Shown: positions 2,819 to 13,894 of the stretch, in pieces
How the letters are laid out: every line of letters starts with the position of its first letter
Numbering within the stretch: the stretch's first letter is position 1
Source of the DNA: Candidatus Omnitrophota bacterium
Lineage (GTDB): Bacteria; Omnitrophota; Gorgyraeia; Gygaellales; Profunditerraquicolaceae
NCBI GenBank assembly: GCA_028712175.1
Contig: JAQTQQ010000002.1
Location: forward strand, 106,044-140,558
Length of the DNA stretch: 34,515 nt
Direction of reading: 5' to 3'
Program-made: the position numbers and the translations under genes
Notes under the pieces: model-generated
What the model was told of the DNA's origin: nothing
Seen by the model: the letters and a program-made list of their open reading frames with translations, nothing else
Databases searched by the model: none

Positions 2819-3940
2819 CTAATGTTTAAACTTAAATATTTTGTTGAAAAATAAAAGTAAAAACAGCCCAAGGCCAAAAACAATAAAACCTAAATTAAAA
2901 CTTTCACGCATAATTATACCGCCCAAGCCGGCTCCGATTCCCCCTGAAATAAAACGTATCCCGCTATTTAAGCTGGCCGCTTCATTTAAAAATTCATTTG
3001 GTAAATCAGTCAACATTGTAGCCAGCCCCACATGGTTAAAAGTCCAGCCCAGCCCCCAAAGAACCATAACCAGGCCGAGTAAAACCACAGGTAATTTTAA
3101 TAAAAGCGAGAAAATACAGATAACCATAACTAAAATGCCCATGCTTATCACTTTTTGCCGGCTGAGCTTATCGGCAAGATGGCCGCCCCATAGCTCACCG
3201 AAAATACCGCTTAAACTGGTTAAGGTAAGCAGCATACTAATGGTAAATTGATTTAATAATAGCTGCGTAGAAAAATAAACCCCCAGCCATTGCTGCACCG
3301 CGTGATAAACCAAGCTTATAAGAAAGATGTAAATAAAAATCCTGATAACTGTTTTATCTTTAAAAGCCCTTAAGTACCCGAAACGGAAACCTTCAAGCCC
3401 ATCTTTAAAACTCGGCAGATAAACATACATGACAGCCCAAAGGAACAAGCCTAAAACTGCCGGAATGATGAAAATCAAGCGCCAATGAACAAGGCCGCTT
3501 AGAAATAAACCTGATAAAGAGGCAATAAAAGTTGAGCCGAAAAATATTCCGATAAATCTTCCGCGCCTATTCTTTTCTACGCATCTGGCAATAAGGACCA
3601 AACCGAGCGGGATGACCGAAGCCCCAAAAAGGCCCATTAAAAACCGCCCGATAAAAAGAATGTTGATATCTCTGCTTAAACCCGCCAAGAGGTTGGCTAA
3701 AGAAAATAAGAATATGCAGTATAATTCTACTTTACGCGCGTCAATCGCGCGCACAAGCGGACCGTAGAAAAATGCCGCAAGGCCATAAGGCAGCATATAT
3801 AACCAGACTATTTTGCCTACGATAAATTGAGAAAGAGCAAAATCAGAAGCAATAGAAGGAATCAATGCCGCAGCCGCGGCCACATTGAAGGATAAAACCG
3901 CTCCTTCTAAACAAAGAATAATGAATGTAGAAGTTCTCAC
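2819..3940 (-). CDS. MFS transporter
   Basis: 373 aa, about 12 hydrophobic segments, MFS-like loop sequences (GRFLMGLFGASVIPLGLVLIAR). Confidence 0.8.
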   Translation of the reverse strand: MRTSTFIILCLEGAVLSFNVAAAAALIPSIASDFALSQFIVGKIVWLYMLPYGLAAFFYGPLVRAIDARKVELYCIFLFSLANLLAGLSRDINILFIGRFLMGLFGASVIPLGLVLIARCVEKNRRGRFIGIFFGSTFIASLSGLFLSGLVHWRLIFIIPAVLGLFLWAVMYVYLPSFKDGLEGFRFGYLRAFKDKTVIRIFIYIFLISLVYHAVQQWLGVYFSTQLLLNQFTISMLLTLTSLSGIFGELWGGHLADKLSRQKVISMGILVMVICIFSLLLKLPVVLLGLVMVLWGLGWTFNHVGLATMLTDLPNEFLNEAASLNSGIRFISGGIGAGLGGIIMRESFNLGFIVFGLGLFLLLFFNKIFKFKH

Positions 3941-4377
3941 TTAGCCGCTTCTTTTTCAATAATTTCTTTAAAAATCTTCAGATTATGCTGCGAGCCTTCA
4001 TTAATAAATCCCTCAACCTGCTGATCATTGAATTTAGCTTTAGCGTCCATATGAAAATGCTGAATCCAGGCCAGCTCTACCCCTTCGGGCTTAGGCGTAT
4101 AAAGCCAGATAATTTTCATATACTCAAAGGGAAACAAAGGGTCCTTGCGCTGGGCATAAGTAAAATATTCATCTTTAAAAAGCAGCCTCCAGGATTGCCA
4201 GGATTTATCATCTTCGTCGGTAAGGCGAAAAGTGATTTTATTGCCTTCTCTTTTTAAGAGCTCTGCTTTCTTATATTCGGCCCCGAATAATTCCGTCCAG
4301 CGCACGATATCATTAGAAATATCGAAAACTAAATCATAAGGAGCGTTAATAATTATCGAATTACAAGTATGCCCCAT
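3937..4377 (-). CDS. SRPBCC / polyketide cyclase-dehydrase family protein (aromatase/cyclase-like)
   Basis: 146 aa; INAPYDLVFDISNDIVRWTELFG start and C-terminal long helix typical of SRPBCC. 4-nt overlap with MFS gene. Confidence 0.7.
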   Translation of the reverse strand: MGHTCNSIIINAPYDLVFDISNDIVRWTELFGAEYKKAELLKREGNKITFRLTDEDDKSWQSWRLLFKDEYFTYAQRKDPLFPFEYMKIIWLYTPKPEGVELAWIQHFHMDAKAKFNDQQVEGFINEGSQHNLKIFKEIIEKEAAK

Positions 4378-4824: not shown

Positions 4825-5628
4825 CTATTCTTCTAAAATAGCCACCACCCTCGCCCAGGCAGCACCCGTGTTTTTAATCCTCACCGGCATACACAACACC
4901 TTAAAACCGCTGGCCGGCAGCTTCTCTAAATTCGCCAGCCGTTCTATATGAATAAACTCCCTAATACGCCCGTAAAAATGCGCCGGATAGAATTTCTTTG
5001 GGTCATTTGACTCAAGAAATTCTTTGAGCATAAATCTGTAAGGCCGGTCAATACCCATGGTATCCACACCAAAAATCTTAATCCCTTTATCTAAAAACAA
5101 GTCTATCGCCGTCACATCAATGCCGGGATAATCGGTGAAATATTTCGGGCTGCCAAAAAGCTTATCGGCTCCGGCATTGATTAAGACTATATCCAGAGGT
5201 TTAAGCTGATAGTTTATTTCTTTTAAGGCAGAAACGATATCATCTGCAGTAATCACTTCGTTGGGTTTTTTATGCCGTAAATCAAGCTTGACCCCATCCT
5301 GGTAACAATACTCTAAAGGTATTTCATCTGCGCACTTAGAAGCCCGGTTTTCGGATTTTGACCCATAATGGAAAGAGTAATCCAGGTGGGTCCCGATATG
5401 AACAGGAGCATGGACTATTTCCAAAGATAAAAATTCTTCATCCGGCAGCTGGCCTTTTTTAATTATCCTCCGGCCAAAAGCATACTTGAGCTTACCTAAA
5501 AAGCTTTTACCCATAATCATGCGGTTGAATTTCTTCACGCCTTCCTTATGGGTTATCCGCTCGATTCTAACCTTATGCACCTCAAAGGCCTTTTCATCTA
5601 TTGGCAGGCTTAGGTCTATGATTTTCAT
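4825..5628 (-). CDS. Cyclase-family (kynurenine formamidase-like) metal-dependent hydrolase
   Basis: HxGTHxD motif: VHIGTHLDYSFHYG; IIDLSLPID start. 4-nt overlap with the ACP gene. Confidence 0.75.
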   Translation of the reverse strand: MKIIDLSLPIDEKAFEVHKVRIERITHKEGVKKFNRMIMGKSFLGKLKYAFGRRIIKKGQLPDEEFLSLEIVHAPVHIGTHLDYSFHYGSKSENRASKCADEIPLEYCYQDGVKLDLRHKKPNEVITADDIVSALKEINYQLKPLDIVLINAGADKLFGSPKYFTDYPGIDVTAIDLFLDKGIKIFGVDTMGIDRPYRFMLKEFLESNDPKKFYPAHFYGRIREFIHIERLANLEKLPASGFKVLCMPVRIKNTGAAWARVVAILEE

Positions 5629-5861
5629 TTGGCCAGTTTTGATTGAATATTTTCTGCAATATCATTAATAGTTGAATTCTTAGTTATCTCTTTTGGGCTA
5701 AGTTTTACCCCGAAGGATTTCTCTAAGGCAATCACCGACTCAACCATTTCGGTAGAGTCAACTCCAATGCTATTGATCAAAGATACATCGTCTTTTAGCT
5801 CGTCAATCTTTACCTTTAATAGGCTGCTTAAAACTTCTTTAGTTTTTGACTTTGTGTCCAT
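5625..5861 (-). CDS. Acyl carrier protein
   Basis: 78 aa, phosphopantetheine site context INSIGVDSTEMVESVIALEKSFGVKL. Confidence 0.85.
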   Translation of the reverse strand: MDTKSKTKEVLSSLLKVKIDELKDDVSLINSIGVDSTEMVESVIALEKSFGVKLSPKEITKNSTINDIAENIQSKLAK

Positions 5862-5992: not shown

Positions 5993-7453
5993 TTATATCT
6001 GCACCTCTCCTTTAGTAGCAGCGGCTTCCCACTTATTGATTCCATCCATAACGTCCTTAAAACAAAGCTTGGCTAAAGGATCGAAATTACTTTCCATAAT
6101 CCGGTTAATCCTTCCAGGCTTGGAGAAAAATTCCCGCATACACCAGGAACCCAGGCGGCCGAGGTCTTCCGTAGTAAGATAGTCGGTAGGAATTACCGGA
6201 TGCAGAAAATCCCATTGGGAAAAATCCACTTTTTTAGGGTCCATAAAATTTTTCTTTAAAGCAATCCGCCACATCGGAGAATTCGGGGCAGGAGTAACAT
6301 AGCCTACCCAGAGGACATCCGGGTCTACCTGATCGGTAAACTCAAAACGCTGCTTAACTATCTCTTCGGTATCATAATCAAAACCCATCATGATATCGGC
6401 GACAATCGCGATATCATTCTTACGGAACATCTCTATGGTTTTTTTAATCTGTTCAATTGTGATACCTTTAGCGATTTTCTTCAGTTCCGATTGCGTGGTA
6501 ACTTCGATGCCGAAAACTCCCATGAACAGACCGTTTTCTTTCATCATCGGGAGTATCGATTCACAGTTCACCCAATCTATGGCCCGGCCTAATGACACCC
6601 ATTTAATCGGATTATTGGAAGCTTTTTTAAGCTCGCAGAATTTTTGTACCCTTTTCGGGTCTACGTTAAAATTATCATCCTGGATGACTACGACTTTAAC
6701 GCCGTATTTTCTATGCAAAAGGTTAAGCTCTTCCATAACTCTTTCCGGTGATTTAGCGCGCCATTTCAAGAAATCCGAAGGAGAGCGCGGGTCAAACTGG
6801 TCCCATTCATAACAAAAGGTACAAGCTGAAGGGCATCCCCGTGAAGTAACCATATCTACAAACGGTTTCCAATAAGTATGGCCGACATATTTGTCCATGG
6901 GGAATAAATCATAGGCCGGAAGAGGCAATTTATCTAAATCTTCCATTAATGGTTTATGCGGACCCATAACAATCTGTCCGTCAATACGCGAAGTTACCCC
7001 GCCCACATCTTTAAGGCTCTTCTTTTTATCTATTGCCTCAATCAAATCCCCAAAAGACTCTTCCTCTCCCATAACTACAAAATCAATAGCGGGATTTTCT
7101 TCTAAGGTAGGTACGGGCATCGCCGAATACCATAGACCTCCGACGATAATTTTAGTTTTGGGAAGCGCCTTTTTTATCCCGGCTGCCGCATCGCGGAAAT
7201 GGCGCAGAACACCGTAACCGCCGTAACCATGCAGCTGTTCACCCATTACGACAATATCGGGATTTATGGTTTTTACTTTTTCGATCAACTCTTCCATCGG
7301 GAGCTGGTCGGCTTTTCCGTCAATTACGGCAACATCAGTATACCCCCTTTCCCTGGCATAGGCAGCCCAATGCGCATACAGCTGATTCGGGGATCTATGT
7401 ATTCCATGTGTTGCCCAAGCACCAACCTTTGGCATAACAAATAATATCTTCAT
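5993..7453 (-). CDS. B12-binding-domain radical SAM protein (BchE-like superfamily)
   Basis: 486 aa; N-terminal cobalamin-like Rossmann region (MGEQLHGYGGYG...IIVGGLWYS...FVVMGEEE) then radical SAM cluster motif SRGCPSACTFCYEW (CxxxCxxC). Confidence 0.85.
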   Translation of the reverse strand: MKILFVMPKVGAWATHGIHRSPNQLYAHWAAYARERGYTDVAVIDGKADQLPMEELIEKVKTINPDIVVMGEQLHGYGGYGVLRHFRDAAAGIKKALPKTKIIVGGLWYSAMPVPTLEENPAIDFVVMGEEESFGDLIEAIDKKKSLKDVGGVTSRIDGQIVMGPHKPLMEDLDKLPLPAYDLFPMDKYVGHTYWKPFVDMVTSRGCPSACTFCYEWDQFDPRSPSDFLKWRAKSPERVMEELNLLHRKYGVKVVVIQDDNFNVDPKRVQKFCELKKASNNPIKWVSLGRAIDWVNCESILPMMKENGLFMGVFGIEVTTQSELKKIAKGITIEQIKKTIEMFRKNDIAIVADIMMGFDYDTEEIVKQRFEFTDQVDPDVLWVGYVTPAPNSPMWRIALKKNFMDPKKVDFSQWDFLHPVIPTDYLTTEDLGRLGSWCMREFFSKPGRINRIMESNFDPLAKLCFKDVMDGINKWEAAATKGEVQI

Positions 7454-7491: not shown

Positions 7492-8730
7492 CTATAGCGC
7501 GGGGTGTTTCTCAATCACCAAAACCGAATTAATCCCTCCTCTTCCGCGGGAAATGATCAAAGATTTTGTTATCTTGTATTCCTTTGCCTGTTTGGCAACA
7601 TAATTTAAACCCTTTAAAACCGGTGTTTCCAAATTTAATGTCGGCGCAACTAAACCATGCTCCATATTCAAAAGCGCAATGATCATATCCAGCGCACCGC
7701 TTGCCCCAAGCAGGTTTCCAAACATGGATTTCGGACAGCTTACAGGAATGTTCTTTAAATACTCTCCGAAAACTATCTCTAAAGCCTTGATCTCCGAATC
7801 ATCCCAAAGGCCAACCGCTAAACCGTCCAAACTAATATAACCAATCTCTTCTATGTTTGCCTCTGCATCACTAAGCGCCATACTAATTGCCCGGGCAAGC
7901 TCTTTTCCGTCGCCGGAACAATTAATCCTATCTACCCCGTCGCAAGAATAGCCGTAGCCGCTGATTAAGCCTAAAATACTGGCACCTCTTTTTTTAGCCC
8001 TGTCTACACTTTCCATAACCACAATGCCTGCGCCTTCACCAATAACAAAACCACTGCGCTCTTTATCAAACGGCCGGTAAGCTTCATTCGGGTTCTGATT
8101 ATTTTCTGACAGCGACCCATACGTATTACAGCACAATAAAGCATAAGGCGTAACCGGAGCCTCCATCCCGCCTGACAAAATCATGTTTAATTTATCTTTT
8201 TCCAGTACTTTTTTTGCGTAACCTAAAGCCATAAGAGAACTCGCCCTGTCGCTAACAACGGTTTTGCTAAAACCCTTGATCCCGTAATAAATAGACACTT
8301 GGCCCTGCGGCGCAGCAGGAAACCATGCGCTGGCCATATAAGGAGAAACTCCTTCCCTGCCTTCTAAATATAAATCCCTTAATTCTGTCTCCGCATAAAG
8401 CCAGCCGCCGATGGCGTTTCCCAAAAAAATACCCATAAGGCTGGGATCTTCGTTTTTAATATCAATCCCGGCATCCTGCAAAGCCAGCTCCGAAGCAACC
8501 AGAGCCATATGCGAAAAGGCATCTATCTTTTTTAAGAGCCTTTCGGATATATGGCTGTATTTTTCCAGGTCATCAATTTGCCCTGCGATATGCGATGGAT
8601 AAAGAGAAGCATCAAAACGGGTAATTTTTTTAATAAAAGACCTGCCGCTCTTAATATTCGCCCAGAATTGCCGTTTTCCAATTCCCGATGGGCTGACTAC
8701 GCCGATTCCTGTAATTGCTATTTTCCCCAT
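7492..8730 (-). CDS. KS-beta / chain-length-factor-like ketosynthase homologue lacking catalytic residues
   Basis: 412 aa thiolase-fold KS. Active-site Cys position reads VVSDRASSLMALG (Cys to Arg); first His position YISLDGLAVG (His to Asp); second His position KSMFGNLLGASGA (His to Asn). Confidence 0.85.
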   Translation of the reverse strand: MGKIAITGIGVVSPSGIGKRQFWANIKSGRSFIKKITRFDASLYPSHIAGQIDDLEKYSHISERLLKKIDAFSHMALVASELALQDAGIDIKNEDPSLMGIFLGNAIGGWLYAETELRDLYLEGREGVSPYMASAWFPAAPQGQVSIYYGIKGFSKTVVSDRASSLMALGYAKKVLEKDKLNMILSGGMEAPVTPYALLCCNTYGSLSENNQNPNEAYRPFDKERSGFVIGEGAGIVVMESVDRAKKRGASILGLISGYGYSCDGVDRINCSGDGKELARAISMALSDAEANIEEIGYISLDGLAVGLWDDSEIKALEIVFGEYLKNIPVSCPKSMFGNLLGASGALDMIIALLNMEHGLVAPTLNLETPVLKGLNYVAKQAKEYKITKSLIISRGRGGINSVLVIEKHPAL

Positions 8731-9992
8731 TATCCACCAAACCTTTTAAAGATAAGCGAAGAATGTATGCCTGAAAAACCGCTTGATGTTTTCATGATCA
8801 TATTAACTTTTTTTTGTATTGCCTGGTTCGGAATATAATATAAATCGCACTGCGGGTCTTTTTCCTCTTGATTAATAGTCGGCGGGAGGATATTTTTCTC
8901 AAATATCATCGCAACTATGGTCATCTCAACGGCGTTTGCCGCTGCCAAAGGATGCCCGATCATGGATTTAAGCGAGCTAATCGGAAGTTTATAGGCGTAA
9001 TCGCCAAAAATTGCCTTATAGGCATTGCTTTCAAAAATATCATTCATGCGCGTGCTTGATCCATGGGCATTAATATAATCTATCTGGCCGCATGCAACAT
9101 TCGCATCTTTTAATGCCAGTCCGATACAGGTTTCCATTGCCCTGCCGTCAGAAGGAAGATCAGTCATATGAAAAGCATTGCAGCTGGTGCCAAACCCCAA
9201 AACTTCGCAGTAAATCGGCGCGTTACGTTTAAGAGCATGACTTAATTCCTCGAGGATTAAAATTCCCGCGCCTTCTCCAAGCACAAAACCATCGCGTTTA
9301 TTATCAAAAGGCCGGGATGCCTTTTCCGGTTCGTCATTATGCACGGACAAAACATTGACTACATCAAAAGCGCCGAAGGTTATCGGGGTAAGCGGGGCCT
9401 CGGCTGCGCCACAAATCATTATCTCCTGCTCTCCATCCTGAATACTCTCAAGGCCAAACCCCAAAGAATCTGTCCCCGCGGTGCAGCCGGTAGAAATTGT
9501 ATTGCAGATTCCTTTTAATCCATACCGGGCGCTGATTTCTATGGAAGGAGTATTGAACATAGCCGCATCATATAAATCAGGGCGCACTAAAGCCGGGTCA
9601 ATCGGTTTATGTCCGTCTTCCGTGACCAAAGCGAACTCCTCTTCCATATATTTTGTCCCGCATATCGCATTTGCCAAACATACGCCGATACGCTGGGTGT
9701 CTTCTTTTGAAAAATCCAATTTGCTGTCATCAATAGCCATTTTACCGGCAGCAACTCCAAATTGAACATAACGGTCCATGCGCATAGCCTCTTGGTGATT
9801 TAGGCCCAATTTAAAAGGATCAAAATCCCTTACCTCGGCGGCAATCTTGGTATTAAAAACCGAAACATCAAAACCGGTCACCTTGCGCACCCCTGATTTA
9901 CCGCTTGAAAACCCTTCCCAGGCATTAATTTTCCCGATACCGTTAGGCGAAATTACCCCGATTCCGGTAACAACTACTCTGCGTTTAGCCAT
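8730..9992 (-). CDS. KS-alpha / FabF-like beta-ketoacyl-ACP synthase
   Basis: 420 aa; intact Cys-His-His: ISTGCTAGTDSLG, INAHGSSTRMND, SLKSMIGHPLAAANAVE. STGCT-type motif resembles type II PKS KS-alpha. Confidence 0.9.
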   Translation of the reverse strand: MAKRRVVVTGIGVISPNGIGKINAWEGFSSGKSGVRKVTGFDVSVFNTKIAAEVRDFDPFKLGLNHQEAMRMDRYVQFGVAAGKMAIDDSKLDFSKEDTQRIGVCLANAICGTKYMEEEFALVTEDGHKPIDPALVRPDLYDAAMFNTPSIEISARYGLKGICNTISTGCTAGTDSLGFGLESIQDGEQEIMICGAAEAPLTPITFGAFDVVNVLSVHNDEPEKASRPFDNKRDGFVLGEGAGILILEELSHALKRNAPIYCEVLGFGTSCNAFHMTDLPSDGRAMETCIGLALKDANVACGQIDYINAHGSSTRMNDIFESNAYKAIFGDYAYKLPISSLKSMIGHPLAAANAVEMTIVAMIFEKNILPPTINQEEKDPQCDLYYIPNQAIQKKVNMIMKTSSGFSGIHSSLIFKRFGG

Positions 9993-9995
9993 AAG

Positions 9996-10592
9996 TTATT
10001 TCTTCTCCTCTACCCTAGTAACTTTAAAAATAATATCCCCTCCGTCAGGGCAGGTTACCGTATCGATTGAATCCGGATCCTGCATAAAGAAAAACTTTGC
10101 TCCGAAGTTTAAGGCAAACAAAGCCGGAAAGGCGGTGTGGAATGCCGCTCCGCAAAATCCCGGGATACATTTTAACCCCACAGTTTCCCATTTATCCCCA
10201 ACTTTGTATCCAAAACTACATTTACCTTTTGCCTTAACCACTTCAATGACCATTTTCTTAGGAGAAGGCCCTTTATGCTGGGGGTCACGTTCAATAAATT
10301 CTAACTTGCCTTGCTTATCCAAAATCTCGGCTTTAAATTCAAGCTTTCCTCCGTCCGGACAGGTTACCAGCAAGCTGCGCTGGTTATCGCGGAATCCGAA
10401 CTTAGCGCCAAAACTTAAGGCATAAATTACGGGAAAAAGTGCATGTGCCAGGCCCAGGCAAAAATGTTTCGGCCCATGCGTAAAATCTTCCAGGACAATC
10501 TCATCACCTATTTTATAACCATGATAACACTCGCCGTAGACCCCGGTTACTGTCAATTTTAGGCGGGGAAAAGGAGTTTTAACCTCATCCAT
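9996..10592 (-). CDS. Tandem duplicated TIGR04076-family domain protein
   Basis: Two copies of the pattern VTGVYGECYHGYKIGDE...YALSFGAKFGF...VTCPDGGKLEF and VVKAKGKCSFGYKVGDK...FALNFGAKFFF...VTCPDGGDIIF. Confidence 0.7.
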   Translation of the reverse strand: MDEVKTPFPRLKLTVTGVYGECYHGYKIGDEIVLEDFTHGPKHFCLGLAHALFPVIYALSFGAKFGFRDNQRSLLVTCPDGGKLEFKAEILDKQGKLEFIERDPQHKGPSPKKMVIEVVKAKGKCSFGYKVGDKWETVGLKCIPGFCGAAFHTAFPALFALNFGAKFFFMQDPDSIDTVTCPDGGDIIFKVTRVEEKK

Positions 10593-10593
10593 T

Positions 10594-11598
10594 TTAAATA
10601 AGCTCCTTGGTCTTATCTATCAAATCTTCCTTGCTAAAGAATCTACCGTTTTCTTCAACCTCGTGCACCATATCCACTAAAACCTTGTTTAATGGCGCAC
10701 GCATATTATTCTCCTCAGCCAGGCGCACAAATTCACCGTTAATATAATCAATCTCCGAAAGTTTACCGCGCATTATGCTTTGCAATATGGATCCATATAA
10801 CGGCTCGCGGCTTAAATTACTCATAAGATGAGAAAAAACCCCTGCGGCCTGTTCGCTGGGCATTGAAGTAAGCTTGGTAATATTCTCCACCGGAAACCCC
10901 GGCAGAGAAACCAAATCTATCCCAAGCTTATCAAAGATCTCAAAAGCCTCTTTCCAGATGGCAATACTGATGCGGCTAGTAGTCAAGTCACTGAATACAT
11001 CCTGCATGCTTTTACCGATTATCGCAGGCAGGCAGTTATTGGCATTAACAAAAATTTTTAAGTACTTCATCCCCTTAATATCCTCGCTGATTATCGTAGG
11101 GAAAGCTTCGTCTAAAACCAGGCTTAAAGAAAGCATGGCTTCGGTAGGATTTGGGTTAAAAAAACTGCCTAATACCCAGCTGCCTTCAAAATTATGCACT
11201 ACCTTGCCGGCTTCAAGCGCCGTAGCACCGAACATAATAATACTAGAAATAATATTATCCTTGGAAATATACTTAGAAACCAGTGTATCTGCCTGAACGC
11301 CGTTCTGCGTAGTGAGCACTAAGGAATTATGCAGCAGGTGAGAACTGTCTTTTAAAGCAGCATCGATATCCTGGGTTTTAGTCGCCAGAATCAATAGTTC
11401 CGGAATATAGTTTAGGGTCTCGGAAATACCAATACGCACCGAGAAATTACCCCTTACCCCCGATATAGAAAGTCCTTTTTCCTTAATCGCCCGAACGGCA
11501 TCGCTGCGGCCGACCAAAGTTACATCTTCGCCTTTTCCTTTAAGATACCCTGCGACTAAACAACCTATGGCTCCTGGGCCGATAACTGCGATACGCAT
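10594..11598 (-). CDS. Ketopantoate reductase (PanE/ApbA) family oxidoreductase
   Basis: MRIAVIGPGAIGCLVAGYL (GxGxxG), LILATKTQDIDAAL, LVLTTQNGVQ. Confidence 0.8.
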   Translation of the reverse strand: MRIAVIGPGAIGCLVAGYLKGKGEDVTLVGRSDAVRAIKEKGLSISGVRGNFSVRIGISETLNYIPELLILATKTQDIDAALKDSSHLLHNSLVLTTQNGVQADTLVSKYISKDNIISSIIMFGATALEAGKVVHNFEGSWVLGSFFNPNPTEAMLSLSLVLDEAFPTIISEDIKGMKYLKIFVNANNCLPAIIGKSMQDVFSDLTTSRISIAIWKEAFEIFDKLGIDLVSLPGFPVENITKLTSMPSEQAAGVFSHLMSNLSREPLYGSILQSIMRGKLSEIDYINGEFVRLAEENNMRAPLNKVLVDMVHEVEENGRFFSKEDLIDKTKELI

Positions 11599-11867
11599 TA
11601 GCTTTTAATGTTTTTTGGAAAACCGTATTTTTTATAATCAAAACCGGTCTGCTCAAGTATGCGGACCATCATGCTATAGAACGGGGATGGAACATCGGAA
11701 AAAAAAGCTCCAATCACATCCTGATCCTCTACTCGGGCAGAATTACGCAGAAAAGCTATTTTCTCCGCCTGCACCCTAACTACCGACTCGGCGATATGGC
11801 GATGGAATACCGGTATTTTAGAAATTAAGGTTTTAAATTTGTTTTCGGTTTTAGCTTCCCAAAGCAT
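11598..11867 (-). CDS. Small PCP_red-like domain protein
   Basis: 89 aa; KIPVFHRHIAESVVRVQAEKIAFLRNSARVEDQDVIGAF resembles the PCP_red (PF08369) pattern; recognised by eye only. Confidence 0.45.
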   Translation of the reverse strand: MLWEAKTENKFKTLISKIPVFHRHIAESVVRVQAEKIAFLRNSARVEDQDVIGAFFSDVPSPFYSMMVRILEQTGFDYKKYGFPKNIKS

Positions 11868-11908
11868 GGTTTAACCTTATTAAATTTAAGGAGTTGTATT
11901 CCAAATGA

Positions 11909-11938
11909 AATTATATAGTAAAATTTTACTATATAATT
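11909..11938. promoter_or_regulatory. Perfect 30-bp palindrome, putative operator
   Basis: AATTATATAGTAAAA|TTTTACTATATAATT, no mismatches; overlaps -10 and predicted start site. Confidence 0.75.
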
Positions 11939-11964
11939 CTAATAAAACCGCGTTAGTTTGTCAA
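11936..11964 (-). promoter_or_regulatory. Sigma70-like promoter of the PKS-like cluster
   Basis: Minus strand TTGACA (11964-11959), 17-nt spacer, TAGAAT (11941-11936). Confidence 0.75.
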
Positions 11965-11969
11965 GTTAA

Positions 11970-12929
11970 TTAATACTCTTTCCAGGAGAATACTTTCTTG
12001 GTCGCAGGATGGATAATAATACTATAGCGCAGGCCTTCTTCTTTATTGCCAAAGACAGGTTTAACATTAAAACGCAGGTATTCTGACTTTACATCTAATA
12101 TGGCAAGTAAAGACAGAATATCCTGTTCTTGCCTTAAGCCTAAAAAGGTAAAATTTCTTAAATCCTCCAGGATTAGCGCAGTACTTGAAAACCCATACCC
12201 TAAATCAACATCAGAGTAACGTGGATCAGGGTTTTCGATTTTATGCACACGCCGAAAACGTAAAATTGCGTCAACGACCTCCTCATCTAAACCCAAGGCT
12301 AAAAACACGGGCTTACTTGCTGTATTAATGTTTATTTTACCCTGGCCATAAACAGTAACCAAATCTTTAAAAGACACAAATTTTTCTTTAGTCATATCTT
12401 CGACTAAAAGCACTTCATTGACTGAAGCAAATGGCCGCATTCCGCTATTTATTATTTTGTCTGCGAGCTCTTCGTTTAGGCCCGGCAGCCTTTTAAGGAC
12501 ATCCCTGGACGCAGTATTTAAATTAATCAAGGCGCTTTCATCAACCAGCTCAAAACTATCCGCAGAATATTTTTTATCAGCAAAACAATATTTATAGTAA
12601 ATATTTTCGCATAAAATCTGCTGGTTTTCCCTTGCCAGTTCATCAAAAGTATCAAAGGCAGGGGTAGCATCCCCTTCTTCCAGGTAAAAAACTGTTTTTA
12701 ATGCCGCGCGGGCCACAGGCAATGACAACCTTAAACGCTGATAAGCCTTAGTAAACTTTATCTCCTGAAAAGCCAGCCCTGCCAAACCCATGCCCAATAA
12801 AGAAAGGATCATTATCGCCCAGAGGCAGATAATTAAAATGCTGGCTTTTTTCTGACTTAAGTCCAAAATATTTCTTCCCGGCTTAAGCTGTAGGCAAAAA
12901 TACTGTCGAGTCATACTCTTGATTTTCAT
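11970..12929 (-). CDS. gspK: GspK-like general secretion protein
   Basis: N-terminal hydrophobic helix KKASILIICLWAIMILSLLGMGLAG, then two helix-hairpin-helix-like segments (INLNTASRDVLKRLPGL..., ININTASKPVFLALGL...). Confidence 0.8.
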   Translation of the reverse strand: MKIKSMTRQYFCLQLKPGRNILDLSQKKASILIICLWAIMILSLLGMGLAGLAFQEIKFTKAYQRLRLSLPVARAALKTVFYLEEGDATPAFDTFDELARENQQILCENIYYKYCFADKKYSADSFELVDESALINLNTASRDVLKRLPGLNEELADKIINSGMRPFASVNEVLLVEDMTKEKFVSFKDLVTVYGQGKININTASKPVFLALGLDEEVVDAILRFRRVHKIENPDPRYSDVDLGYGFSSTALILEDLRNFTFLGLRQEQDILSLLAILDVKSEYLRFNVKPVFGNKEEGLRYSIIIHPATKKVFSWKEY

Positions 12930-13512
12930 CAGTAATAGTAAACTTCACGGCAGTAGGCAGATAATCCTCCTGCCACTGGTCCGTCCATTTGTAAGTATTT
13001 TGCTTCAAATCAAAATAAAAATAAGAAAATTTTACATCCTTGACTTTAGACAAAAAAACCGAAGGTTTATCCTTAAAACCCGCCTCTATCGTGCCTTCAG
13101 GTGTCGTGATCTCATCCAGCCTGTCCGCCACACGCATCATGCAGAGTGACGAGCTGTCAAAATAATAAGTTAAACGGCAGGGAAAATAATCCAAGGAGCC
13201 GGCAAAACTAATTCTAGCCTTAGCGCCGGAAAATAACTGTTTCTTGTAACTTGGTTGCTGCCTTAGCTCCCGGCCAAGCCTTTCGACTCTAAGCAGGATC
13301 TTCTGTTGCCTAAGATCGACATTTCTTATCCGGCGCAATATTGAGGCTCCGGAGAAAAAAGTTGAATAGATAGCAATACTGACAACAGAAAAAATGGAGA
13401 CCGCAATAAGCAGCTCTACCAGAGTAAACCCCGGAAGGGTAAAGGCTCTTTTAGTTGATTTATTGTTTTTGTTTGAATAGGTATGTGGAAAGAGTGATAT
13501 GTTTTCTGACAT
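12883..13512 (-). CDS. gspJ: Type II secretion minor pseudopilin, GspJ-like
   Basis: Prepilin motif LPGFTLVELLIAVSIFSVVSIAIYSTF. Confidence 0.7.
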   Translation of the reverse strand: MSENISLFPHTYSNKNNKSTKRAFTLPGFTLVELLIAVSIFSVVSIAIYSTFFSGASILRRIRNVDLRQQKILLRVERLGRELRQQPSYKKQLFSGAKARISFAGSLDYFPCRLTYYFDSSSLCMMRVADRLDEITTPEGTIEAGFKDKPSVFLSKVKDVKFSYFYFDLKQNTYKWTDQWQEDYLPTAVKFTITDENQEYDSTVFLPTA

Positions 13513-13894
13513 TCTGTTCGCGCCAGCTAAGGTTAAGACATACTTGATTAAGATATTCGGTTAAATTTTCCGGCTGAGAGACCTCAGCTACTTCCTGCGT
13601 ATAATTATAATCCCTTAGAGTAGATTGCAATAAACCGCTAGATCCGGAAACAGACGAGCTGCCGGTTAGGCTCAAAACCTCAAGGGCCTCAAGCTTTTGG
13701 CTGGCTAGATTTAAAGCGCCGATAATATTCGCAGTTGAGTTTATCCCTCTTAATGCCGCAATATAAGAATTGGCTACAACAGTCAACCCTATCCCTAATA
13801 TAAGCACACTGATCATTATCTCAACCAAAGTAAAACCCGGGGAAAGACTTCGGAGGTATTTCTTTAACTTCTCAGGAATAGCCCTCTTTGTCAC
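13460..13894 (-). CDS. gspI: Type II secretion minor pseudopilin, GspI-like
   Basis: Prepilin motif SPGFTLVEIMISVLILGIGLTVV. Confidence 0.65.
   Translation of the reverse strand: MTKRAIPEKLKKYLRSLSPGFTLVEIMISVLILGIGLTVVANSYIAALRGINSTANIIGALNLASQKLEALEVLSLTGSSSVSGSSGLLQSTLRDYNYTQEVAEVSQPENLTEYLNQVCLNLSWREQNVRKHITLSTYLFKQKQ

Follow-up and report, generated by a model that had tools for sequence, protein, structure and literature searches.

The stretch of DNA analysed here, 34,515 nucleotides long and referred to below as the window, carries at the head of a ketosynthase-containing biosynthetic operon a palindromic operator whose 18-bp core recurs, with a promoter of its own, in many other genomes of the Omnitrophota. 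We consider it highly likely, from comparative sequence analysis, that this palindrome is the operator of a PadR repressor placed over the biosynthetic operon, and that a small molecule would release PadR from it. As hardly any gene regulation has to our knowledge been studied in the Omnitrophota, the result provides a concrete predicted regulator-operator pair for the phylum, defined well enough for in vitro testing. It also singles out a conserved metabolic pathway as one under a switch instead of constitutive expression, and the PadR ligand would offer a direct lead on the product of that pathway. Operators usually turn over fast, and a single-copy 18-bp site that is the same across 15 families is an unusually clean case for asking why some of them persist.

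The palindrome and its promoter

The regulatory elements of the window are as follows:

11909 to 11938, no strand: perfect 30-bp palindrome, the candidate operator with local flanking symmetry
11915 to 11932, no strand: conserved 18-bp operator core ATAGTAAAATTTTACTAT, with half-sites TAGT and ACTA and the 8-bp spacer AAAATTTT
11936 to 11941, minus strand: -10 element TAGAAT, sharing 3 bp with the palindrome
11959 to 11964, minus strand: -35 element TTGACA, conserved in relatives

The original prediction had described a perfect 30-bp palindrome that overlaps the final part of the -10 and the predicted start site of a minus-strand promoter, TTGACA-N17-TAGAAT, and all of these elements were recovered. 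The palindrome, AATTATATAGTAAAATTTTACTATATAATT, consists of two fully (100%) complementary 15-nt arms without a loop, spans the expected transcription start site and is the only palindrome of at least 16 bp in the window. The promoter matches 11 of the 12 consensus positions, with its two hexamers at a spacing (17 nt) within the 16-18 nt of sigma-70-type promoters, and among six candidates within 2 kb it ranks first, the remaining five scoring 9. It lies 5 bp beyond the stop codon of gspK, from which the minus strand reads TTAATTAACTTGACA-AACTAACGCGGTTTTAT-TAGAAT-TATATAGTAAAATTTTACTATATAATT and onward to the ATG, at 11867, of a gene for an 89-aa DUF2621-like protein.

Only the inner 18-20 bp of the palindrome are conserved in relatives, whereas the arms outside them diverge: on the right, conservation drops to roughly 0.1 bits only a few bp from the core, and on the left some signal persists, mostly due to the -10. 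The full 30-bp symmetry is therefore partly local to this genome. Hence, the element stands as an operator, but not with 30 bp as its working unit; the alignments point to the 18-20 bp core as the functional unit. The core occurs exactly once in this genome, and a search for further copies yielded none within three mismatches of the 24-mer or two of the 18-mer.

The further claim that the cluster thereby has its own switch, separate from the upstream secretion operon, held in part. The core always comes with its own promoter, including at loci where the upstream neighbour differs from the secretion operon, which supports a dedicated switch. Full separation is another matter, as the stretch from gspK to the palindrome promoter showed no terminator, and transcription of the secretion operon may to some extent run through in this genome. 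What lies upstream differs among relatives (accA-padR, an RND efflux gene or others); the link to type II secretion genes is thus local, and was rejected as a general feature.

The gene cluster behind the promoter

The genes of the cluster, all on the minus strand, are given in the order of transcription:

11598 to 11867, minus: first operon gene, 89-aa DUF2621-like protein (Pfam DUF2621, E 6.6e-6, just below the curated cut-off)
10594 to 11598, minus: ketopantoate-reductase-like dehydrogenase (ApbA/PanE family)
9996 to 10592, minus: protein with two TIGR04076 repeats
8730 to 9992, minus: ketosynthase alpha, FabF-like, cysteine kept in ...STGCTAGT...
7492 to 8730, minus: second ketosynthase, chain-length-factor-like, VVSDRASSLM without cysteine at the equivalent stretch
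5993 to 7453, minus: B12-binding radical SAM enzyme (BchE is the nearest named model, with a score below its cut-off)
5625 to 5861, minus: acyl carrier protein
4825 to 5628, minus: putative cyclase (PF04199)
3937 to 4377, minus: polyketide cyclase/START-like protein
2819 to 3940, minus: MFS transporter
2032 to 2808, minus: short-chain dehydrogenase/reductase (by sequence; start at the ATG at 2808)
3 to 914, minus: amidohydrolase-like protein (by sequence)

The placement of the element at the head of a PKS-like cluster was borne out, with the first operon gene starting at 11867 and two ketosynthases and an acyl carrier protein downstream. The second ketosynthase, in lacking the active-site cysteine, is like the chain-length factors of type II polyketide synthases. 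An ortholog of the short-chain dehydrogenase/reductase is found in the cluster of many relatives. "Ladderane" clusters of the antiSMASH type have been reported in Omnitrophota MAGs (PMC9902471) and share with the present cluster the phylum and a richness in ketosynthases; however, against the ladderane radical SAM model the radical SAM enzyme of the cluster scores 71.6, far below the cut-off of 360.

Past window position 1, the same strand continues (L166, G000:C15, about 8011-13823 for the first four) with genes for a nucleoside phosphorylase (PNP), an MtnA-like isomerase, a class II aldolase and an aldehyde dehydrogenase, and with an AMP-ligase gene. The DHAP shunt is a route for 5'-deoxyadenosine, a by-product of radical SAM enzymes (PMC8102628, PMC10986504). 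By analogy, the first four enzyme types together with the radical SAM enzyme of the cluster look like a built-in, DHAP-shunt-like salvage route for 5'-deoxyadenosine.

The usual gene order behind the core in relatives is DUF2621-ApbA-TIGR04076-KS-KS-radical SAM-ACP-cyclase; alternatively, an AMP-ligase gene comes first, and after it either this same series or a set of MMPL / LolA-like / DUF1302 genes.

Conservation of the core

The operator claim had been staked beforehand on conservation upstream of orthologous clusters, and such conservation was found both in the genus and across 15 families. Within the genus, every genome with an assembled promoter has the core in unaltered form ahead of the orthologous cluster, where it lies behind TTGACA and a -10 between divergent flanks. 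A search of 27 genus genomes allowing up to two mismatches found one exact copy each in 24 and none in three. In the latter the cluster is seen, or may lie, on a contig broken before the promoter: in two of them (G005, G006) the cluster contig stops short of the promoter, and in the third (G008) it is a 3.4-kb fragment. The -35 is unreadable in one further genome (G003) because its contig begins at the core itself.

Two minor observations come from the genus. In G009 (C8:6302-6629) an intact core precedes a DUF2621 reading frame that contains two TGA stops, and the TIGR04076 gene was not detected behind it; this cluster may be decaying, or the contig may be faulty. In G004, G010 and G002 a two-mismatch site, CAAGTAAAATTTTACTAT, is present upstream of the same small gene (L260 1896, L261 1933 and L262 1901); a site of this type is absent from the window's own genome, and we regard it as a possible, weak candidate for a second target.

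Across 386 Omnitrophota genomes the exact 18-mer was found in 75, with one copy each, whereas the reversed pattern had no exact match in the same set. Since the control rises once two mismatches are allowed, such matches were considered only in combination with data on position or PadR. A wider scan for the pattern TTGACA-N10-40-core across 85,462 species matched 84 stretches. Going by record titles, 79 of the 80 stretches listed belong to Omnitrophota/Omnitrophica or to an unnamed bacterium; the exception is one "Planctomycetales" MAG, which has the same cluster in the same gene order. This distribution places the window's own genome in the Omnitrophota. Nearly all of the 80 listed loci head a DUF2621/ketosynthase cluster or an AMP-ligase operon. 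A different target is seen in G145, of a genus of family f30, where the core heads a xanthine-dehydrogenase-like operon (L153, about 9937-9954); two genomes of the same genus (G250, G346) have one exact copy of the 18-mer each. PadR is present in this genus, so the regulator may have been re-targeted there.

A PadR-family protein as the probable partner

As had been predicted, the window has no obvious repressor gene; the likely one lies elsewhere in the same genome, on contig C13, and codes for a PadR-family protein. In about 30 neighbourhoods, only one transcription-factor family was repeatedly found next to the core, namely a 171-aa protein whose gene directly follows accA. In many relatives this gene separates accA from the palindrome, and it adjoins the palindrome at about one third of the examined loci, which are spread over many families. 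The window's own genome has one ortholog (G000:C13:7333-7845, 171 aa), directly behind accA and with 65% identity to the ortholog of G011. Its N-terminal winged-helix domain matches PF03551 with 52.1 bits (curated cut-off 27, E 7e-14). An AF2 monomer model (pLDDT 86.6) predicts C-terminal helices at 110-135 and 144-170 and the overall PadR fold; it gave 46 matches in the PDB at E <= 0.001, almost exclusively to the PadR family, and the top ones are PadR proteins throughout, among them B. subtilis PadR in complex with its own operator. A search of titles and abstracts found no papers treating an Omnitrophota PadR.

A profile search of the 386 genomes found 166 strong PadR orthologs, and 74 of the 75 genomes with the palindrome have one; the Fisher value (2.7e-31) is descriptive, since it ignores kinship, and it overstates the association because related genomes are not independent. 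The exception, G368, is a fragmented genome with the palindrome in which no PadR was found; another, G342, has the cluster and a two-mismatch site without PadR. In the window's own family and order, sites with up to two mismatches occur with PadR in 70 genomes and without it in none.

An alternative is that the palindrome serves another regulator encoded elsewhere, PadR being only an inherited neighbour of the cluster. The PadR gene is indeed away from the palindrome in this genome, where the pairing consequently rests on orthology, and in several others; moreover, the gene order accA-padR-cluster is old and might account for some of the co-occurrence. This confounder is broken by two observations. 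Among genomes without the cluster marker, PadR is present in 13 of 14 with the core as against 49 of 266 without it. Conversely, G381 (L272, G381:C87; genome 83% complete) has kept the cluster while both PadR and the palindrome are missing, and is a natural case of loss. PadR also accompanies the palindrome where the latter heads other operons, there is no second recurring transcription-factor family, and the spacing of the half-sites fits the published PadR motif (see below). We therefore regard another regulator as unlikely, and the C13 PadR as very probably the protein that binds the palindrome.

Position of the core and direction of control

In the 80 listed loci of the 84 matched stretches the core starts 12-39 nt behind TTGACA (12-13 nt in 9 loci, 24-28 in 20, 31 in 5 and 34-39 in 46). 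With the -10 at 17-23, this places it on the -10, across the start site or a short way behind the latter. The promoters at these loci are near consensus, with TAAAAT or TATAAT as the -10 in 69 of 79. At many of the 34-39 nt sites the core is preceded, at a distance of about 14 bp, by a second copy that is weaker and partial, such as tatagtaaaatttaaATAG, which suggests paired binding.

These positions bear on whether PadR, when bound to the palindrome, might activate instead of repress, as the activating roles of its relative AphA could lead one to expect. None of the 80 listed loci has the core upstream of the -35, although the scan pattern itself demanded the core behind TTGACA and would miss upstream sites; the un-anchored genus set has the same layout, behind TTGACA and the -10, and the promoters are themselves close to consensus. 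A core that overlaps or follows the -10 and is never upstream of the -35 fits repression best, and we hold activation to be improbable, somewhat more so than a different regulator.

It is very improbable that the element acts as an mRNA-leader hairpin or in a riboswitch-like manner. Most of the palindrome would be transcribed in this genome, and a 6-bp stem is predicted, but neither a stable nor a covarying leader structure emerged: the fold z-score is -0.38, no Rfam family comes near its threshold, and near-matches such as TTAGTAAAATTTTACTAT alter one side without compensation. Furthermore, in those relatives where the gap is 12-13 nt, the core extends over the -10 and only a part of it would be transcribed. 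A chance palindrome, for which AT-rich intergenic DNA favours short examples, is refuted by the 75 exact single copies against an empty reversed control and by a length of 30 bp, where the longest palindrome in 150 first-order simulated windows was 24 bp and about 8e-5 of 30 bp are expected per window from local composition.

Repression by PadR might then proceed thus: 1) A dimer of the 171-aa protein would bind TAGT-AAAATTTT-ACTA. 2) The bound dimer would cover the last part of the -10 together with the start site. 3) It would thereby block transcription of the approximately 18-kb biosynthetic operon beginning at 11867. 4) A small molecule, which may be a pathway intermediate or product, would free PadR from the operator. 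More tentatively, and with rather less than even confidence, we propose that this has been a one-regulator, one-target circuit since the early diversification of the Omnitrophota, in which the 18 bp stayed frozen while changes affected the flanks, the gene order, the adjacent operons and even the pathway under control, with PadR sensing a metabolite of the ketosynthase / B12-radical-SAM pathway.

Comparison with known PadR systems

The published PadR motif is ATGT-N8-ACAT (PMC4517056), of which looser variants are known (PMC3506622). The present element has the inverted repeat with an 8-bp spacer, and thus matches the published geometry, but its half-sites, TAGT and ACTA, are not the canonical letters; other PadR proteins likewise use differing half-sites (PMC3506622, PMC5050560). 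One of these is cdPadR1 of Clostridium difficile, with half-sites related to TACT/AGTA that are non-canonical like those described here, and with a required AT-rich spacer (PMC5050560). In contrast to the single target per genome observed here, cdPadR1, a small PadR-s2-like protein, autoregulates its own promoter and has many candidate sites.

PadR/padC of B. subtilis (PDB 5x11) combines, as is predicted for the Omnitrophota protein, a winged helix-turn-helix with a C-terminal helical dimerisation part, and likewise has a palindromic operator with half-sites 8 bp apart at a metabolic operon. It controls phenolic-acid detoxification, whereas the candidate operator described here, with TAGT/ACTA half-sites, heads a ketosynthase/AMP-ligase pathway; its ligand p-coumarate (PDB 5x13, 5y8t) is not implied for the Omnitrophota PadR. 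The best full-length match in both structure and sequence is Rv0047c of Mycobacterium tuberculosis (PDB 8jxk), although identity is about 29% and the phylum is another one.

Autoregulation of padR was rejected for this genome, as its 3.5-kb padR locus has no core-like site within five mismatches. Near padR on C13, upstream of a small helix-turn-helix-like gene, there is a separate perfect palindrome of 22 bp, ATTTATAGTAATTACTATAAAT (L167 1319-1340), whose half-sites resemble ATAGT/ACTAT but are set 4 bp apart.
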